From positions 1,831,001 to 1,895,000 of the forward strand of contig OY540813.1 of NCBI GenBank assembly GCA_961205875.1: a stretch of DNA of 64,000 nucleotides, written 5' to 3'. The first letter of the stretch is position 1; each line of letters begins with the position of its first letter. Below, piece by piece: positions 20,184 to 63,824 of this stretch. The notes under the pieces were generated by a model. It saw only the letters and a program-made list of their open reading frames with translations. It did no database searches and was not told the DNA's origin. This stretch comes from Sialis fuliginosa. Taxonomy: Eukaryota; Arthropoda; Insecta; Megaloptera; Sialidae. The translations under genes were made by a program, and so were the position numbers.

Positions 20184-20897
20184 GTTTTTCAATAACGCCA
20201 AAGAAGTATAACTTCTTGTTCCCTATATAGTGTTATAATTGGGCGTACTTCTAATACACAATGAAAACATCAGACAGATCGGTTCAGTAATGTTTTAATT
20301 TAATGAACACTTACATGTTTCCATAGAGCGTTTTTCAATAACGCCAAAGAAGTATAACTTCTTGTCCACTATATAGTGTTATAATTGGACGTACTTCTAA
20401 TATACAATGAAAACACCAGACAGATCGGTTCAGTAATGTTTGAATTGAACACTTACATGTTTCCATAGAGCGTTTTTCAATAACGCCAAAGAAGTATAAC
20501 TTCTTGTCCACTATATAGTGTTATAATTGGGCGTACTTCTAATACACAATGAAAACATCAGACAGATCGGTTCAGTAATGTTTTAATTTAATGAACACTT
20601 ACATGTTTCCATAGAGCGTTTTTCAATAACGCCAAAGAAGTATAACTTCTTGTCCACTATATAGTGTTATAATTGGACGTACTTCTAATATACAATGAAA
20701 ACACCAGACAGATCGGTTCAGTAATGTTTGAATTGAACACTTACATGTTTCCATAGAGCGTTTTTCAATAACGCCAAAGAAGTATAACTTCTTGTTCCCT
20801 ATATAGTGTTATAATTGGGCGTACTTCTAATAAACAATGAAAACATCAGACAGATCGGTTCAGTAATGTTTGAACACTTACATGTTTCCATAGAGCG
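20184..20897. repeat. Satellite of five 138-146 bp units, dimeric, containing a splice donor
   Basis: Units start at 20,184, 20,330, 20,472, 20,618 and 20,760, with lengths 146, 142, 146, 142 and 138. Alternate units share variants (ACATCAG versus ACACCAG, GGGCG versus GGACG), so the true unit is a dimer of 288 bp. Each unit ends with CTTACATGTTTCCATAGAGCG, which on the minus strand is the last 16 bases of the adjoining exon plus its GTAAG donor. The array therefore probably arose by tandem duplication from the exon edge into the intron. Units also carry the inverted motif AAGAAGTATAACTTCTT and ACTATATAGT. Confidence 0.9.
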
Positions 20898-21176
20898 GGC
20901 ATGAGTGGGCGGCATGAGCGACGGAGGTGGCCTGAGTACGTCATACGAGAGCAGGCGGTCGGGCAGCGCGGACTCGGTCGCGTTGTTCTCGTCCTCGAGC
21001 CCGGGGGTGGCCGCCACCAGCGCCGCCGACAGCGCCACCAGCGCTACTGACGCAGATCTCACCTGCGCGGACGCAACCACGACGCGCTCATCTTTTCTCC
21101 TCGCTCCACGTGCCGATGCTATCGGTCACGGGGTTCTCGACACAAATCTGGGTGAGTCTCCGATATACTCAAGAGC
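20882..21176 (-). CDS. Exon of unrecognised secreted-protein gene (signal-peptide exon)
   Basis: A GC-rich island on the minus strand has a near-ideal acceptor (pyrimidine tract ending TTTTCCAG before 21,176) and a consensus donor (AAACAT|GTAAGTG, exon end at 20,882). One frame, open from 21,125 down to the donor, has strong G/C in third codon positions. It encodes a hydrophobic segment VALVALSAALVAATPG followed by an acidic, N-glycosylatable stretch (ENNATESALPDR) and LRPPPSLMPP. This looks like a signal peptide and the start of a secreted precursor or ectodomain. The only suitable ATG (21,091-21,089) opens a different frame, MSASWLRPR, and meets a stop at 21,061. One extra base between 21,066 and 21,061 would join it to the hydrophobic frame. 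Either the assembly lacks a base, or the allele is broken, or translation starts elsewhere. I do not recognise the family. Later exons should lie below 20,184 or outside the window. Confidence 0.6.
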
Positions 21177-33623: not shown

Positions 33624-36600
33624 ATGGAAAACTCTCACAAAAATAACTCGAACAAACCAAATTATTTGATATTAGGAGGTAAGGTTACGTTCTATAAAAT
33701 TAGGTTATGTTAAACTATTTTACGTTTTACGAATAATTTTTTTTCTTGAATAACATTTATAAAACAATGAATGAAAATTTTAATTCATTAAATATTTATA
33801 GGCTGTGGATTTATTGGAAGAAACCTAATACATCACCTTGTAAGCGAAGATGCTGCAAATAAAATACGAGTTGTGGACAAAGTGCCTCCGCAAGTAGCAT
33901 GGCTCAACAACAGGCACACGAAAACCTTTTCAAACCCTATCGTAGAGTTCAAAAGTGCTAACCTCATCAACGAAACATCGTGCGCTTCTGCGTTTGCACC
34001 CAACGAAGATGATATATGCTGGGATTATGCAATTAACTGCGCTGCCGAGACTAAGGTAGGCCAAACGGATCCCGTGTACCAGGAAGGGATACTGAAGTTG
34101 AGTTTAAACTGTGCTAACGAGGCCGTTAAGCGAAATGTGAAGCATTACGTTGAAATGTCGTCAGGGAATATGTATTCTTCGGAAAAGGTTAGTAACAAGG
34201 AAGAATCTGTAGTGATGGTGTTTTTTATTTATTTAAATATCACAGAATCCGCATAAAGAAGATGGGATGTTGGAACCCTGGACGTTTATAGCTAAATGGA
34301 AATGCCAAGTAGAAAAAGAACTTCAAAATATTCAAAATCTTAGATATACCGTGTTGAGGCTACCTAGGGTCTACGGTTTCGGAGACAGATCAGGCTTAAG
34401 TAAGTCACATTACTTATACTGTTAATTCAATTGATTTCAACACATTTTTAATTTTTTTTTATTGCAATCATATTTTATTTTCAGAATAGAAAAGCTATGA
34501 AATAAGTAAAAACACAGATTCGGTAAAAATTTTGTTATTTTCTAAACAAAAAAAAACCACGGTGTATTTAACAAAATTTATTAACATTTTGTATATAAAA
34601 AAAAGTCTCCTGTTTAATGGCAAATAACTTTAAAACTAGAAAACACACAAACTTCATAACAGTCTTAAAATGTGCGCTATTTAATCTAGTTTTATGTATT
34701 TAAATTTCAAACCATTCTGATTAATTGTTTACTAGTTACAGCTCTTTAATTAAGTCAAGTACTATCACATGCAAAAGTAACTGACAGCCTCCTATTTTTT
34801 ATACTCAAAAACTGATACTTTACTTAAAAAGCTGTAACTATTAAATGATTCATCGAAATAATTAGAAATTTTAATACATTAAACTAGACTATATAACGTA
34901 CATTTTAAAACCATCCTGAAGTTTGTGCGATTTATAGTTCCAGAGTACTATGTCGTCAAACATGAGACGTTCTTTTAATCTACTTTCTTTAGATAATAAA
35001 ATAAAATTACTAAATTTGGGATTTTATTTATATATATTATTTAACTTTCATTTATGTTGTATTTAATTAACATGTTGACTGCCATAATATATTTTAATAT
35101 CTGTCTCTAACTCTCGATTAAGATAGTTATGTCGCATTCAATCATTTGCCATAACTACCTTAAGAATGTATAAAAAAAAAACAACCTAAAAAAAATTACT
35201 TTAAACTTTCACCGATCAAATATACTAATTTTAATACCAACCTTACAGCACCACGGTTAATATTTGGTGCCATATACAAACAGCTCAATGAAACAATGAA
35301 ACTGCTTTGGACTGCGAACCTAAAACTCAACACTGTGCATGTAAGCGACGTATGTCGGGCTGCGTTGTTTGTTTGCGGCCGTAATGACACCGTAGGAAAG
35401 GTCTATAATGTGGTAGACACGGCCAATTCTACGCAGGGGACGGTAACCGAGATTGTTGCCGATATATTTGGTATCCAATATGATTATTTAGGGTTTATTA
35501 TGTCTACAATAGCTAAGGTTAGTGTATATTTTAATAGGGAATGTTTTTATTGTCAAAAATAATTTAGGGGTAAGATAGACCCTTTTAAAAAATATGAGTA
35601 TTTTTTGTTCATTATATGTGTATTTTATAAAAAAAGCTTATAGATAGTGCACTCTCAATTTTTAATTTTAGGGGTAAGATATACCCTTTTAAAAAATATG
35701 AGTATTTTTTGTTCATTATATGTGTATTTTATAAAAAAAGCTTATAGATAGTGCACTCTCAATTTTTAATTTTAGGGGTAAGATATACCCTTTTAAAAAT
35801 ATGAGTATATTTTGTTCATTATAGGTATGTGTATTTTATAAAAAATAGATAGTGCACCCTCAATTTTTAATTTTAGGGGTAAGTACACCCTAATGAAAAT
35901 AATTTAGGGGTAAGATATACCTTTTTAAAAATATGAGTATATTTTGTTCATTATATGTGTATTTTATAAAAAAATGCTTATAGATAGTGCACCCTTAATT
36001 TTAGGAGTAAGTACACCCTAATGAAAATAATTTAGGGGAAAGATATACCCTTTTAAAAATATGAGTATATTTTGTTCATTATATGTGTATTTTATAAAAA
36101 ATAGATAGTGCACCCTCAATTTTTAATTTTAGGAGTAAGTACACCCTAATAAAAATAATTTAGGGGTAAGATATACCCTTTTAAAAATATGAGTATATTT
36201 TATTCATTATATGTGTATTTTATAAAAAATAGATAGTGCACCCTCAATTTTTAATTTAAGGGGTAAGTACACCCTAATGAAAATAATTTAGGGGTAAGAT
36301 ATAGGTACACTTTTAAAAATATGAATTGTCTAATATACATATATGTATTTTGTTAAAAAATTGCTTACAGTTAGTATACCCTCAATTTTTAATTAAAGGG
36401 GTATATACACCCTTATAATAAAAATAATTTAGGGGTAAATAAATCCTTTTAAAAATACGAATATAGAATTCAGTATTGAGTATATATATAGTACAGCCTT
36501 AATTTTTAATTTAAGAGCTTTGTTTACCCTTATAATAAAAATAAGGTAATACACCCTCAGTTTTTGATTTAAAGAATAATAAATAATAAAAAAAATTATT

Positions 36601-41295: not shown

Positions 41296-43795
41296 TCATT
41301 CGTCTTCAGTTATCCTACAACATATGTCGCTAATAGGGGATATAACTATGTGCATTTTTAATGTATCACGTTGTGAGCCGACTAAATGTGACGTCACAGT
41401 GTCGTCTACGACCCTAGACATCATTTCAGCAGCCGGCGGGTTGAGTTCTTCAAATGGTATTAAATCGTCGATGTTCATTACTTTGTCTTCTATACTAAAA
41501 TGATGGACCTTTTCTTTGACTGTCATTATGTGCTCGACGCCACCTTGACACCCACTTATTAGAATTCCAACCTAAGATAGTTAAAATTAAGTTAGGTTAG
41601 TTTTTTTTTTTTTTTAATGATATTTTTACCTTAACTCTCATCCTTGGGATACAAACGTTATAATTTGAATTACGGATTGGTACAGGAGGGTCTTTGCAGG
41701 TAATAGCTAAGCGTACAGTGTGCAGTACTCTCTCTGGCACTTCTACAGTTCCGTGGTAAACAATTAATAAAAATTTCTTGAACCAAATTCCTTTTGGAAA
41801 TAAATCTACAACCCATTCACATAAACGGTCACCTGAAAATTATATAATTGGTTATATTTTAATAAACAATTAGAATTTTCTTATAACTGCCATTTTGTAA
41901 ACTTTTTATTCAAATAATACACATTCCTAAATCTCATTAATCACTATTCCCAATTTTTTATTATACTTCATTAAAAATTTAAACTTTCATTGTTGCAAAT
42001 TTTTTATTCAAATAAAATATAACCTCAAATATCAACTGTCACTATCACCAATTTTATATAAATATTTTTATTTTCATTGTTGCAAATATAACCTCAAATT
42101 AAAACTAATACAAATAAATATTATGATAAATTTTCACTAACCTCCATGTTCAGCTAAAGTGGAATGACTTGAAAACACAAAAGTGCATGTATGATAACTG
42201 GGCAGTGACGAAAAATTCTCTACAGTTAACAACGTGCTCCACGAATCACTCGTGTAAAGCCGCGGCTGGAACAACAACTTCCCTGAGTCTAAGGTACGTA
42301 TTGCTTCTTCAATCCTGTCTTGCTGGTTCGAATGGAAGCTCATTCCAAGTGCAAAACGATCAACAAAAAATTCTTTATATTTTATTGTCAAAGGATTCAG
42401 TAAAAGTTCCGCAAGCTGTCTTGGAGACATCATCGGGAATCTGACGTAAGACATAACGGAATATACGATATTCTGTATAATATTTTCAGCATTTTCGCAA
42501 GAATTTTCTTCTATTATGCGGGTGAACTGCGATTGTAACCACTGTGATACACAACTATTAAACAAAATAAATATCATTTGAATAATATGAATTGAATTGT
42601 TATTATACAAATAATACATAATTCTAACTGTCAATATTGTTAATATAACCTCAAATTTCAACTGTTGTACATTTTATTTAAACAAAAGATAACCTCAAAT
42701 CTCAACTGTCAACTTTTATAAAATCTTTATTTTCATTGTTGCACATATAACCTCAAATTACAACCGTGATTTTTGAATAATATGATAAGTTTACGTACTT
42801 GTATAACGATAATTCATCATAGACTACTATATCATCCTGCTGCAAGAGTTGTATAAGCAAATCGTGATCTATATTATCGAAATCGTTCGTTAGTGCGACA
42901 ATTTCCAAGTTCCATTTAATAAAGTTATGGCATTCCTACAAAAAAAACATTTTTATTAATAGTAAATGAATCAGAAAATCCTCGTAAACGTCTTTACCTG
43001 AGCTATGTTATGGTGACCCGTAGCACTAGTGTATTGTAACCAAGACACTAAATGGTTATGTGTAGCTGCTTGCGCAATGTGATTAATCATATATTTTACA
43101 CAGACACTATCTAAGCTCTGGAATTAAATACAGTATTATATTTCTTACATTAATTTATTTTAACCTTGAACTTACCGTAACATTATATTTATCAGCAAGA
43201 GCTAGTAAATGAACAACTGTAGCTATCGTAATTACTATCTGCCCCGTGTAAAAGTACTTCAGGAAATCTGCAAACACAGCCGCACATTCTGGAGATTCTT
43301 GCAGAACCACACAGCTTTCTCTACATTCGCTCCATTCTGGTTTGGTAAGCATCACCTAAACAATATTGTAAATTTATAAAAAATCGTAAGAAATATTATT
43401 GTTTGGATTACCTGGAAGACATCGCTTGTAGCGCAAAGAATAAGGCGATGTGCCGGGTATTGTTTACCTCCGACAACCAGAGAGACATCTGTCATCAACT
43501 GTTCAGAGAGTAACCTCCGTATTCGGTCCAAAACCGTTTGTGAATCATCTATCTGTTAAATAAGTAATACGTTTTTTATTTTTCAAGGATAAATACAAAA
43601 TTTACAAACCTGTAGTGCAGAAGTATCATCAGCATTCCCTTCGGTTTGCTCAGTTTTAGTTGTACTGTTCTGACTAGCATTACTCGTCCTTCCAGTTGCC
43701 CCAAACATTCTAATTCAAACATAATTATAGGTAATCCATTATTATATAAGCAAGTAAAATGTTAAATAATACCTTTTGAGAACACTCTCAAACAT
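41296..43795 (-). CDS. BTBD17: BTB/POZ domain protein, BTBD17-like
   Basis: Nine minus-strand exons (43,795-43,773; 43,709-43,610; 43,552-43,412; 43,355-43,176; 43,117-42,998; 42,935-42,799; 42,554-42,142; 41,832-41,630; 41,571-41,296) join in frame to 530 residues ending at a TGA. Residues 45-148 form a BTB domain with MTDVSLVVGGKQYPAHRLIL and FLKYFYTGQI. Residues 150-265 form a BACK-type domain with VVYDELSLYNCVSQWL. The C-terminal half (about 300-530) resembles the TRAF-like region of BTBD17. Such proteins often act as adaptors for cullin-3 ubiquitin ligases or in signalling; that role is inferred from the family. The vertebrate protein has a signal peptide, but none is visible here. The first exon encodes only MFESVLKR. 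An alternative start exists at the next Met (43,708). Introns 5-7 contain repeated ATAACCTCAAAT motifs. Confidence 0.85.
41850..42790. repeat. Repeated intronic motif in the BTBD17-like gene
   Basis: TTCATTGTTGCAAATATAAC and ATAACCTCAAAT with nearby CAACTGTCA recur in introns 5 and 6-7 (for example 42,004-42,099 and 42,646-42,765). The spread suggests old duplication between introns. Exon 6 lies between them and is unaffected. Confidence 0.5.
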
Positions 43796-44622: not shown

Positions 44623-45587
44623 TTATCTAACTCCAAATTCAAATTCCTTATTCCCTATTTTACAAAATACTTTATTTACATCAATAGATAAAATATCTTC
44701 AGAATTTTTTACGGCTTCGATAAGGCACTGATTCATATTACTTACATATTTATTTAACACTTTTGTTTCATCGCCTACACACCAAGCTATGCTCATATGA
44801 AATTTTCGATCCTAAAAAATATATATAATTTAAAATTAAAATTAAATGTACCATTCGTACTTTTACCTTATAGAAAGTTGGTAATTGGTATTCAGTAAGA
44901 CACGAGTCTAATATATTAACCATTTGACATAGATTCTCATGCCCATATTCGACTGCAAAGCTTAAAAAAGTTCTTGTCCGTTCTTCATTACAAAATACTT
45001 TTATATTGTTGAACATAACTATGAATTCTTTTAAAGATGCAATACTTCTTTTAATTGTATTAACAAAGGAATTAATCCAGTGATATTTTAATATGACCGT
45101 CCGAGTTAGACTGATATGAAAATGGTCGACTAAGAATAAATCTACATCTGGTTTACACATTTGAATTAATTCATTTACTAGAGATATCAGATCTTCATTT
45201 GTATCATCTAAAAATATGATGATTACGTATTATATTTCATCGGAATTGAAACTGGTTAATTTACGTACATTTTATGAAAGCGTAAGTAGCCCAATTTCCT
45301 CTCTGATGGGGAAAACTCCTTATTTTCCCTTGATGTTGATTTGGATCATTTTCAATTTCTTCTGTTTTTGTTGTAAACTTATCTAAAGAAGGCACAGGTA
45401 ACCTATAATGATTTTACTGAATGCATTTTTGAGGTTATGATTTATACGTGAACTAATACCTTTTTGTCTCATTGATGTTTTCTATTTTTAACGTTTCATT
45501 TTTACTTTTATTTTGATCAACATCTTCATCTGAGTCGTCAGTGGAAGAATAATACTTTAATTTTTGAAGAGCATTTAAAGATGACAT
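44623..45587 (-). CDS. USB1: USB1, U6 snRNA 3'-end phosphodiesterase
   Basis: Four minus-strand exons (45,587-45,460; 45,402-45,269; 45,207-44,867; 44,811-44,623) join in frame to 263 residues, close to the usual length of about 265. The family is a 2H phosphodiesterase that trims uridines from the U6 snRNA 3' end and leaves a phosphate that stabilises it, acting in the nucleus. The two HxS motifs are present: HISLTRT (His118, Ser120) and HMSIAW (His206, Ser208). The Ser/Asp-rich N-terminus (SSTDDSDEDVDQ) is typical, and FPHQRGNWATYAFIK is the conserved first strand of the fold. All introns are short with GT-AG borders. The start is the first ATG after an AT-rich leader. It is unusual only in that its 5' side is crowded by transposon remnants from 45,686. 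Confidence 0.95.
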
Positions 45588-61340: not shown

Positions 61341-62550
61341 ATATTTTCGAATTGAGAATCTCTTACTTTCGGTTAAAAAAATGTAGATAATTGGAGGAAG
61401 TTACCCCTGATGTTTTTTTACTGCAGACGCATATGATATAACTTCTTTAGGAAATCCAGATTTTGTGGGAATTAAGTAAAAGCTTTAGTTTTTAATAATG
61501 ACCCTACACCATAATCCTTAGGATAAAAGCAAGGACAAAATTAGGATAATTAGTTTGGTATCATTGTTGAACAGTTCTGTACAGTAAAATATAATATAAT
61601 AACCCTTTTTTTGCTCATTAAGATGAACATTTTATAAGTGAATATTTTCTGTACTTCATCAAATTTTTTTTGTTTTTAATTTCTTGTATTATATGTTGTC
61701 AAGTGCGAGTCATGTCTTACGTATTAGTGTCCCGTACCGTATAATTGTTTATTTATTCAAATTAAGCCAAATAAAGAAACATTTATGTATATTTAATAGT
61801 TCGTGTATTAACAAATTAGCTCCAAATATATTTTTTAAACAATTTTGAATTATTATTTTTGAAAAAATACGTGAGTGCGGTGAGTGTTGATAATTTTTTT
61901 TGATCTCGGTATCATTAGGTTTACATTTTCACGATTTTTTTCAAATTTTTCTCACTATTTATTTCGAAAATATGTGCAGAAGAAAAAATGTCAATCGAAG
62001 ATTTTTACTAATATAATAATTATGTATAAAAAAACTATAATTTTGCCACATCTCTATTGGTAAAACGGTTCAGTAGCTAGAAGGCTATGGCAGACAGATA
62101 GACGGATCCAGTGTTTTATCCCCCCCCCCTTTCGCCCCATCCCAAAAACCACATCAATTTCACGAAACTTCGACATCGCAAAGAAATATTTTACACATGA
62201 ATAAAGAAAAACTAAAAATAAGATGTGAAAATCACATCTGAAACATCTTTTTCATACATCTTTTATGCTACAGTACATTTTCAGAATGGGGGAAACGCCC
62301 CCATAATCTCTGAATATGTAAATTTGTGGTTGGCAATTGTATAAAATTTTTATCAATATCTTCGCTTCGAATTTCTCATAATGACACAAATCATTATGTG
62401 ATCAAGAAACGAACATTTGGTAGGTATATTGATTTACCCATTCCTGCAGAGGTGGCTTAATAATATTGACAAAGGGCCGAATTAAACCATTTAGACACGA
62501 TGTCCCTGTATGAGGTACAGTCTTGCAGTTTGTATTCATTTTCGTTTATC
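61341..62550. other. Non-coding stretch before the second satellite
   Basis: AT-rich DNA with a C run at 62,120-62,128 and a retroelement phrase near 62,055-62,085. Positions 62,520-62,550 are identical to 19,695-19,725. No gene is visible. Confidence 0.45.
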
Positions 62551-63522
62551 GAAGGTCTTCGGGCATTAGATAGTCTTAAAGATAATGGCGTAAGCTATAT
62601 TTAAAAAAAAAACTGGAGTCTCCTCGATCGCGCCAAGCTGACATATTAACTATTCAACTTATATGTTAAATTTTCAATTTAAATTTCTTAATAATAGCCG
62701 AAGGCGCACTCGAAGGTTTCGGGCATTAGATAGTCTTAAAGATAATGGTGTAAGCTATATTTAAAAAAAAACTGGAGTCTCTTCGATCGCGCCAAGCTGA
62801 CATATTAACTATTCAACTTATTTGTTAAATTTTCAATTTAAATTTCTAAAATAATAGCCGAAGGCGCACTCGAAGGTCTTCGGACATTAGATAGTCTTAA
62901 AGATAATGGTGTAAGCTATATTTAAAAAAAAAACTGGAGTCTCCTCGATCGCGCCAAGCGGACATATTAACTATTCAACTTATTTGTTAAATTTTCAATT
63001 TAAAATTCTTAATAATAGCCGAATAATAGCACTCGAAGGTCTTCGGGCATTAGATAGTCTTAAAGATAATGGTGTAAGCTATATTTAAAAAAAAACTGGA
63101 GTCTCTTCGATCGCGCCAAGCTGACATATTAACTATTCAACTTATTTGTTAAATTTTCAATTTAAATTTCTTAATAATAGCCGAAGGCGCACTCGAAGGT
63201 CTTCGGACATTAGATAGTCTTAAAGATAATGGTGTAAGCTATATTTAAAAAAAAAAACTGGAGTCTCCTCGATCGCGCCAAGCGGACATATTAACTATTC
63301 AACTTATTTGTTAAATTTTCAATTTAAAATTCTTAATAATAGCCGAATAATAGCACTCGAAGGTCTTCGGGCATTAGATAGTCTTAAAGATAATGGTGTA
63401 AGCTATATTTAAAAAAAAACTGGAGTCTCTTCGATCGCGCCAAGCTGACATATTAACTATTCAACTTATTTGTTAAATTTTCAATTTAAATTTCTTAATA
63501 ATAACCGAAGGCGCACTCGAAG
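62551..63522 (+). repeat. Satellite of six units, about 160-164 bp, dimeric
   Basis: Six units share GGCATTAGATAGTCTTAAAG, CTGGAGTCTC, CGATCGCGCCAAGC, TGACATATTAACTATTCAAC and ATAGCCGAAGGCGCACTCGA. Unit starts (the CATTAG site) fall at about 62,564, 62,724, 62,885, 63,048, 63,208 and 63,372. Units 3 and 5 share variants (GGACATT, AGCGGAC, CCGAATAATAGC) that units 2, 4 and 6 lack. So a dimer of about 324 bp has been amplified. The array stops directly against a family A MITE. Confidence 0.9.
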
Positions 63523-63824
63523 GTGATGGATACTTTTTAATGATAAGTACTACGACACAAAAGATATAAAAGAAAATTTGTAACAATGTAAAGCAGTTGC
63601 TATGATAATATAATAATTAATAAATAAATTATACTAATAATTAGTTTAAATGTCCACCATTTTGACACCTATTGGTCTCATGTCATCAAATCACTCTGTA
63701 AGACAGTTAAATGTATATAGATTAATATGGTAGTAATCAAATATCAACACATATTTCTAATTCAGTACATTTAATTAAAACTTTGCCATTACTGGGGTCC
63801 CAGCCAAGACTGGAGTCACTACCT
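63523..63824 (+). mobile_element. MITE family A, truncated copy 8
   Basis: The right half of the element, from GATGGATACTTTTTAATGAT to GACTGGAGTCACTACCT, followed by TA. The satellite replaces its left half, so the satellite boundary lies inside the MITE. Confidence 0.8.

Follow-up and report, generated by a model that had tools for sequence, protein, structure and literature searches.

Tandem copies of an exon end and its splice donor: a probable in-place duplication of a predicted exon/intron border

Introduction

The processes closest to the one considered here are the growth of minisatellites inside genes and the tandem genomic duplication of splice sites. The unit of a classic minisatellite is about 10–100 nt long. 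The locus described in this study resembles intragenic minisatellites and other variable-number tandem repeats (VNTRs) in its head-to-tail copies within a (predicted) gene and in a recent higher-order duplication of a dimer, but its units (137–146 nt) exceed the classic range and the array enters an exon by 16 nt.

Tandem genomic duplication of splice sites is reported as a route of intron gain, in which the copying of an exonic AGGT gives rise to a new intron (PMC3443670, PMC2891723, PMC4974935). Tandem duplication has copied splice-site sequence in the present case as well, but here the intron was already in place and the five copies lie within it; as, moreover, the copied exon tail (CGCTCTATGGAAACAT) contains no AGGT, the locus does not represent intron gain. 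Several donors at the end of one exon are also found in GYNGYN tandem donors, which are reported to be overlapping motifs causing subtle protein changes (PMC1779574), whereas the donors analysed here lie 137–146 nt apart, come from the growth of an array, and would truncate the protein. None of the titles retrieved from the literature on arrays, donors and exon borders concerned the repetition of an exon/intron border in tandem.

Results

Structure of the array

The window, i.e. the whole stretch of 64,000 nucleotides that was analysed (C5:1831001–1895000 of a 392-Mb genome in 20 contigs), has a GC content of approximately 30%, shows no CpG depletion (1.11) and appears to be of insect origin. 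Tandem Repeats Finder (TRF) detected an array at window positions 20184–20897 (5.0 copies of a 142-nt period, 93% matches; an alternative reading gives a period of 288), which was also recovered by repeat finding and by the cutting of units. Read on the minus strand, it has 16 nt inside a predicted exon, designated A (20882–21176, minus strand, 295 nt, phase-1 donor). When the minus strand was cut at CGCTCTATGG, five complete head-to-tail units were obtained (20897–20185), measuring 137, 142, 146, 142 and 146 nt in order of distance from the exon. Each unit opens with CGCTCTATGGAAACAT followed directly by GTAAGTGTTC, and closes with TTGAAAAA.

The exon-proximal unit U1 (20761–20897, 137 nt) opens with exon A's own last 16 nt (20882–20897) and its own donor GTAAGT (20876–20881). 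Exact copies of these 16 nt are present at 20745–20760, 20603–20618, 20457–20472 and 20315–20330, and the corresponding copies of the donor at 20744–20739, 20602–20597, 20456–20451 and 20314–20309, so that five identical donors, exon A's own and four copies, follow one another. The first 26 columns of the unit alignment (exon tail plus GTAAGTGTTC) are invariant in all five units. The recurrence of an exact 16-nt match at the period of the unit indicates tandem duplication, not chance. The tandem repetition of the exon-end/donor segment is thus real, and the first-pass annotation, which had described five identical exon-end/donor sites in a row, is correct on this point. It had also placed the last 16 bases of the exon and the GTAAG donor in every unit, which was borne out, but at the wrong end: in the direction of the gene the units begin, and do not end, with the exon tail.

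The remaining units, all on the minus strand, are U2 (20619–20760, 142 nt), U3 (20473–20618, 146 nt), U4 (20331–20472, 142 nt) and U5 (20185–20330, 146 nt), the last of which forms the far edge of the array. U2 is identical to U4, and U3 differs from U5 at only two sites, which points to a recent duplication of a 288-nt dimer (U2+U3 / U4+U5) within an array that was already older. The five copies are therefore not independent of one another. U1 differs from the other units by 1 to 5 substitutions and by 5 or 9 gap positions. Substitutions occur at 5 alignment columns, none of them inside the donor block. However, five randomly scattered substitutions would miss this block 33% of the time, so its invariance does not require selection, of which no sign was detected in the block.

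All four internal junctions are alike (TTGAAAAAC joined to GCTCTATGG), i.e. intron sequence is fused to exon sequence. In the native flanks, GCTCTATGG is preceded by GCCC on the exon side, and TTGAAAAAC is followed by AATTAC on the far side. The overlap at the junctions amounts to at most one shared base (C).

Origin of the repeat unit

When the genome was searched for a 145-nt unit, with 40 of 60 candidates scored, at least 45 matches were obtained, 6 within the array and at least 39 elsewhere. The similarity of those elsewhere is restricted to the final ~33 nt of the unit. A similar piece closes every unit; in U5 it was located by alignment at 20184–20216 (33 nt, minus strand). When the 110-nt unit body (without the tail) was used as a query against the 392-Mb genome, five matches were obtained with E values up to 10, all five in the array; very common words are passed over in this search, which scored a single candidate, so that the rarity of the body is likely rather than proven, further copies not being strictly excluded.

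Two alternative identities were considered and rejected. The unit does not appear to be a satellite, as the first-pass annotation had called it, given that its body was matched solely at the array (5/5, very common words skipped). Nor does it appear to be a transposable element or an array of one, since the 39 of 45 matches located elsewhere are confined to the tail (~33 nt). With the body restricted to the array and the tail alone dispersed, the unit is best described as sequence private to this locus, part of which belongs to an old element. These results, together with the uniform junctions sharing one base at most, also favour the earlier proposal that the array originated at the exon edge.

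Inspection of 25 of the 39 dispersed matches with their flanks revealed a short element, alike over ~105–115 nt and containing two palindromes, one similar to GTGTACTTATGTACAC and the other AGAAGTTATACTTCT. Beyond the far edge of the array, after the shared C, 11 of 14 bases are alike to this element in fixed register, and the element may therefore continue past the array, although the far flank taken alone is not significant (441 of 2000 shuffles scored as high). Among the 25 inspected loci the element was present in one other array (L030), which is too few to credit it with driving the formation of arrays. The array at L030 is unrelated and comprises 3.3 copies of a 275-nt unit (L030:827–1743, on C3). 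Literature searches for the sequence of the element retrieved no paper, and a scan of viral contigs with an exact 22-nt pattern was likewise negative. Within the window, no Rfam family reached the gathering score and ARAGORN found no tRNA.

The predicted gene

Exon A contains a signal-peptide-like reading frame that is open from 21062 to 20882. With approximate matrices, its acceptor is outscored by 8 of 2826 AGs, and the five donors, which score equally, by 21 of 3554 GTs on the strand. Candidate exons were scored over 100 kb on the downstream side of the window and 30 kb on the upstream side, and three further predicted minus-strand exons, 34–57 kb downstream, join exon A in phase: (i) exon B (C5:1817806–1817667), (ii) exon C (C5:1796930–1796654), and (iii) exon D (C5:1795293 to a TGA at 1795078–1795076). 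All three were picked by visual inspection of scored lists in which doubtful candidates also figured.

When exon A is spliced from its own donor (donor 1), the joined frame, taken from the V at 21062, is 271 residues long. It opens with a signal-peptide-like segment, continues with a short ectodomain and a single strong membrane segment (LLLVLCVVVLSVALGVF; mean hydropathy 3.17 over 17 residues), and closes with a proline-rich tail. The predicted gene would accordingly encode a single-pass membrane protein. The exon had originally been taken for that of a secreted protein; according to the prediction it probably supplies the signal-peptide-like start of a membrane-anchored one. No Pfam family was assigned to the joined protein (a single match at E = 4.9 was disregarded), and a search of PDB with a shorter, 199-residue version yielded no relative.

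Discussion

We consider it likely, to judge from the sequence, that the array arose by a local and fairly recent in-place tandem duplication of the exon/intron border, which was then expanded, most probably neutrally. As local duplication of a border predicts, the copies begin inside exon A and their junctions are identical. In the simplest history, ~140 nt were duplicated in place: the terminal 16 nt of exon A, ~80–95 nt of the beginning of the intron, and ~33 nt belonging to an old element, dispersed in the genome, that lies in this intron. The duplication would have had one boundary in exon A, 16 nt from its end, and its other boundary within the element or at its margin. We infer this first event, while the make-up of the units and their junctions can be read directly. 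Because the copied segment began inside exon A, every copy carries an exon end and a donor. Later rounds, probably of unequal exchange or slippage, would have produced the five units, the identities between units suggesting that the 288-nt dimer was duplicated in the last of them.

The predicted intron that contains the copies spans ~34 kb and belongs to a region of the chromosome rich in arrays; the copies themselves are most probably neutral. Splicing would be expected to proceed from exon A's own donor, since the others give a truncated protein. In 194 kb around the locus (C5:1731001–1925000) we identified 23 arrays with a period of 60 or more, occupying 15,614 bases (8%), and 14 of the 23 have units of 131–169 nt; this abundance makes a neutral by-product the likeliest reading. 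Arrays were scarce in the other DNA compared, and the argument from abundance is consequently limited to the 194-kb region: a 60-kb block of another contig (C3:15000001–15060000) contained no array of period 60 or more, and 25 loci totalling 75.8 kb contained one. As the C3 block also has only one predicted exon, gene content and chromosome position are confounded in this comparison. If the neutral reading holds, the locus provides a clean natural case of a donor copied four extra times with the original unharmed, and a ready test of donor choice among identical competitors.

The alternative that survives best is that arrays arise or persist preferentially at exon borders, so that the array at exon A is an example and not an accident. 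Three of the seven exon edges of the predicted gene are located within 15 nt of the edge of an array. When the donor of exon A was set aside, two of the other six edges lay within 20 nt of an array edge, compared with a mean of 0.057 in 5000 circular shifts, of which 10 reached two. Arrays lie on either side of exon C, one of 6.7 copies of a 142-nt unit 12 nt before its acceptor and one of 64/100-nt period 5 nt after its donor. Another array (C5:1759444–1759686, 1.9 copies of a 131-nt unit) stops 5 nt short of a predicted plus-strand exon (1759691–1759836), whose motif may be CBM14-like, and the T-rich tract ahead of the acceptor of this exon is present in both copies.

Considered after the fact, the position of both edges of exon C within 12 nt of arrays would be unlikely under a plain neutral placement. 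The test itself, however, is also post hoc: at 10 nt a single edge remains (reached by 146 of 5000 shifts), and at 50 nt there are two (47 of 5000). For the 28 exons predicted automatically (threshold 25; the exon at 1759691 scored below this value and is hence outside the set), two edges were observed against 0.56 expected, with 219 of 2000 shifts as high, and one of these two edges belongs to a wrong-strand call over exon C. When the hypothesis was fixed beforehand and applied to the fresh C3 block, the absence of arrays and the single predicted exon left too few data. We therefore regard a preference for exon borders as improbable, also in the fuller form in which splice-site arrays would nucleate or persist at the borders and grow outward, with the four extra donors of exon A leading to one soluble form. 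If such a preference did exist in the genome, it would constitute a new bias in the origin or survival of tandem repeats.

It has also been proposed that the donors compete for, or buffer, splicing; in this reading the five sites would jointly bind U1 and set the efficiency or variability of the splicing of exon A. Five identical good donors in a row would be suited to such a role, and a precedent exists in human DOK7, where SRSF1 and hnRNP A1 are reported to shift the choice between competing donors: of two such sites in human cells, the intron-proximal one is favoured by SRSF1 and the intron-distal one by hnRNP A1 (PMC5585400). The consequences for the reading frame, however, point the other way. 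Use of donors 2, 3, 4 and 5 would lengthen exon A by 137, 279, 425 and 567 nt, respectively, and all four predicted transcripts would run into the same TAG in U1 (20799–20801, minus strand). Only donor 1 preserves the long frame and none of the four copies keeps a usable one, so the copies are not spare versions of the correct donor. Furthermore, the intron-proximal donors are precisely the truncating ones, and wherever intron-proximal sites are favoured these would win; competition would then amount to a cost or a switch rather than provide a buffer. As the donor block also bears no mark of selection, the proposal is not supported, and we judge this function of the array to be distinctly improbable.

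A reading of much the same low probability is that exon A, or its end, has been misread, in which case the overlap between array and exon would be meaningless for splicing. The hydrophobic frame of exon A lacks an internal ATG and meets a stop on its upstream side, while the sole ATG ahead of it (21089–21091, minus strand) is one frame off and encodes MSASWLRPRR followed by a stop, i.e. it terminates after ten codons. The start may possibly reside in another exon, or the problem may be due to a slip in the assembly or to a true lesion. GC-rich DNA readily stays open, and the predicted protein, as noted, has no Pfam or PDB relative. On the other hand, exon A is bordered by a strong acceptor and a strong donor, and it joins in consistent phase to three predicted exons that end in a stop. 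Exon A is therefore probably real, as far as these predictions go.

It is very unlikely, in our opinion, that the array acts as a switch between an anchored and a regulated soluble form of the protein. The uniformity of the products gives this idea some appeal, as donors 2–5 (4/4) would all lead, through the TAG at 20801–20799, to the same 87-residue stretch, cut ahead of the membrane segment. The tail following exon A does not, however, resemble a designed end. The TAG is followed after 54 nt by the unit-2 junction, and with the stop at least 54 nt before the next junction, decay of the message would be likely; in addition, the start codon of exon A is itself doubtful. Least probable of all, to the point of being hardly credible, is the production of poison exons that lower expression, in which an acceptor-like TTATTAG or TATTAG, present in every unit, would pair with the donor of the next unit to give four possible 82-nt pseudo-exons (the first at 20745–20826, minus strand), each with a TAA at its join straight after exon A, because these acceptors are weak, being outscored by 270, 434, 436 and 434 of the 2826 AGs on the strand. 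A neutral duplication of the exon/intron border remains the preferred explanation.

Other arrays and exons are present in the same window. An array of 104/128-nt units (35563–36465) is situated ~45 nt after the exon end of an epimerase-like gene (the neighbouring ORF, 33792–34256, matches Epimerase) and contains ten GTAAG on the plus strand; a donor-like GTAAG within an array is thus not special as such. The longest array of the window is found at 62549–63524 (6.1 copies of a 162-nt unit), and minus-strand exons at 41296–42673 and 44768–45229 match the BTBD17 TRAF domain (PF23651) and the HVSL family (PF09749), respectively.
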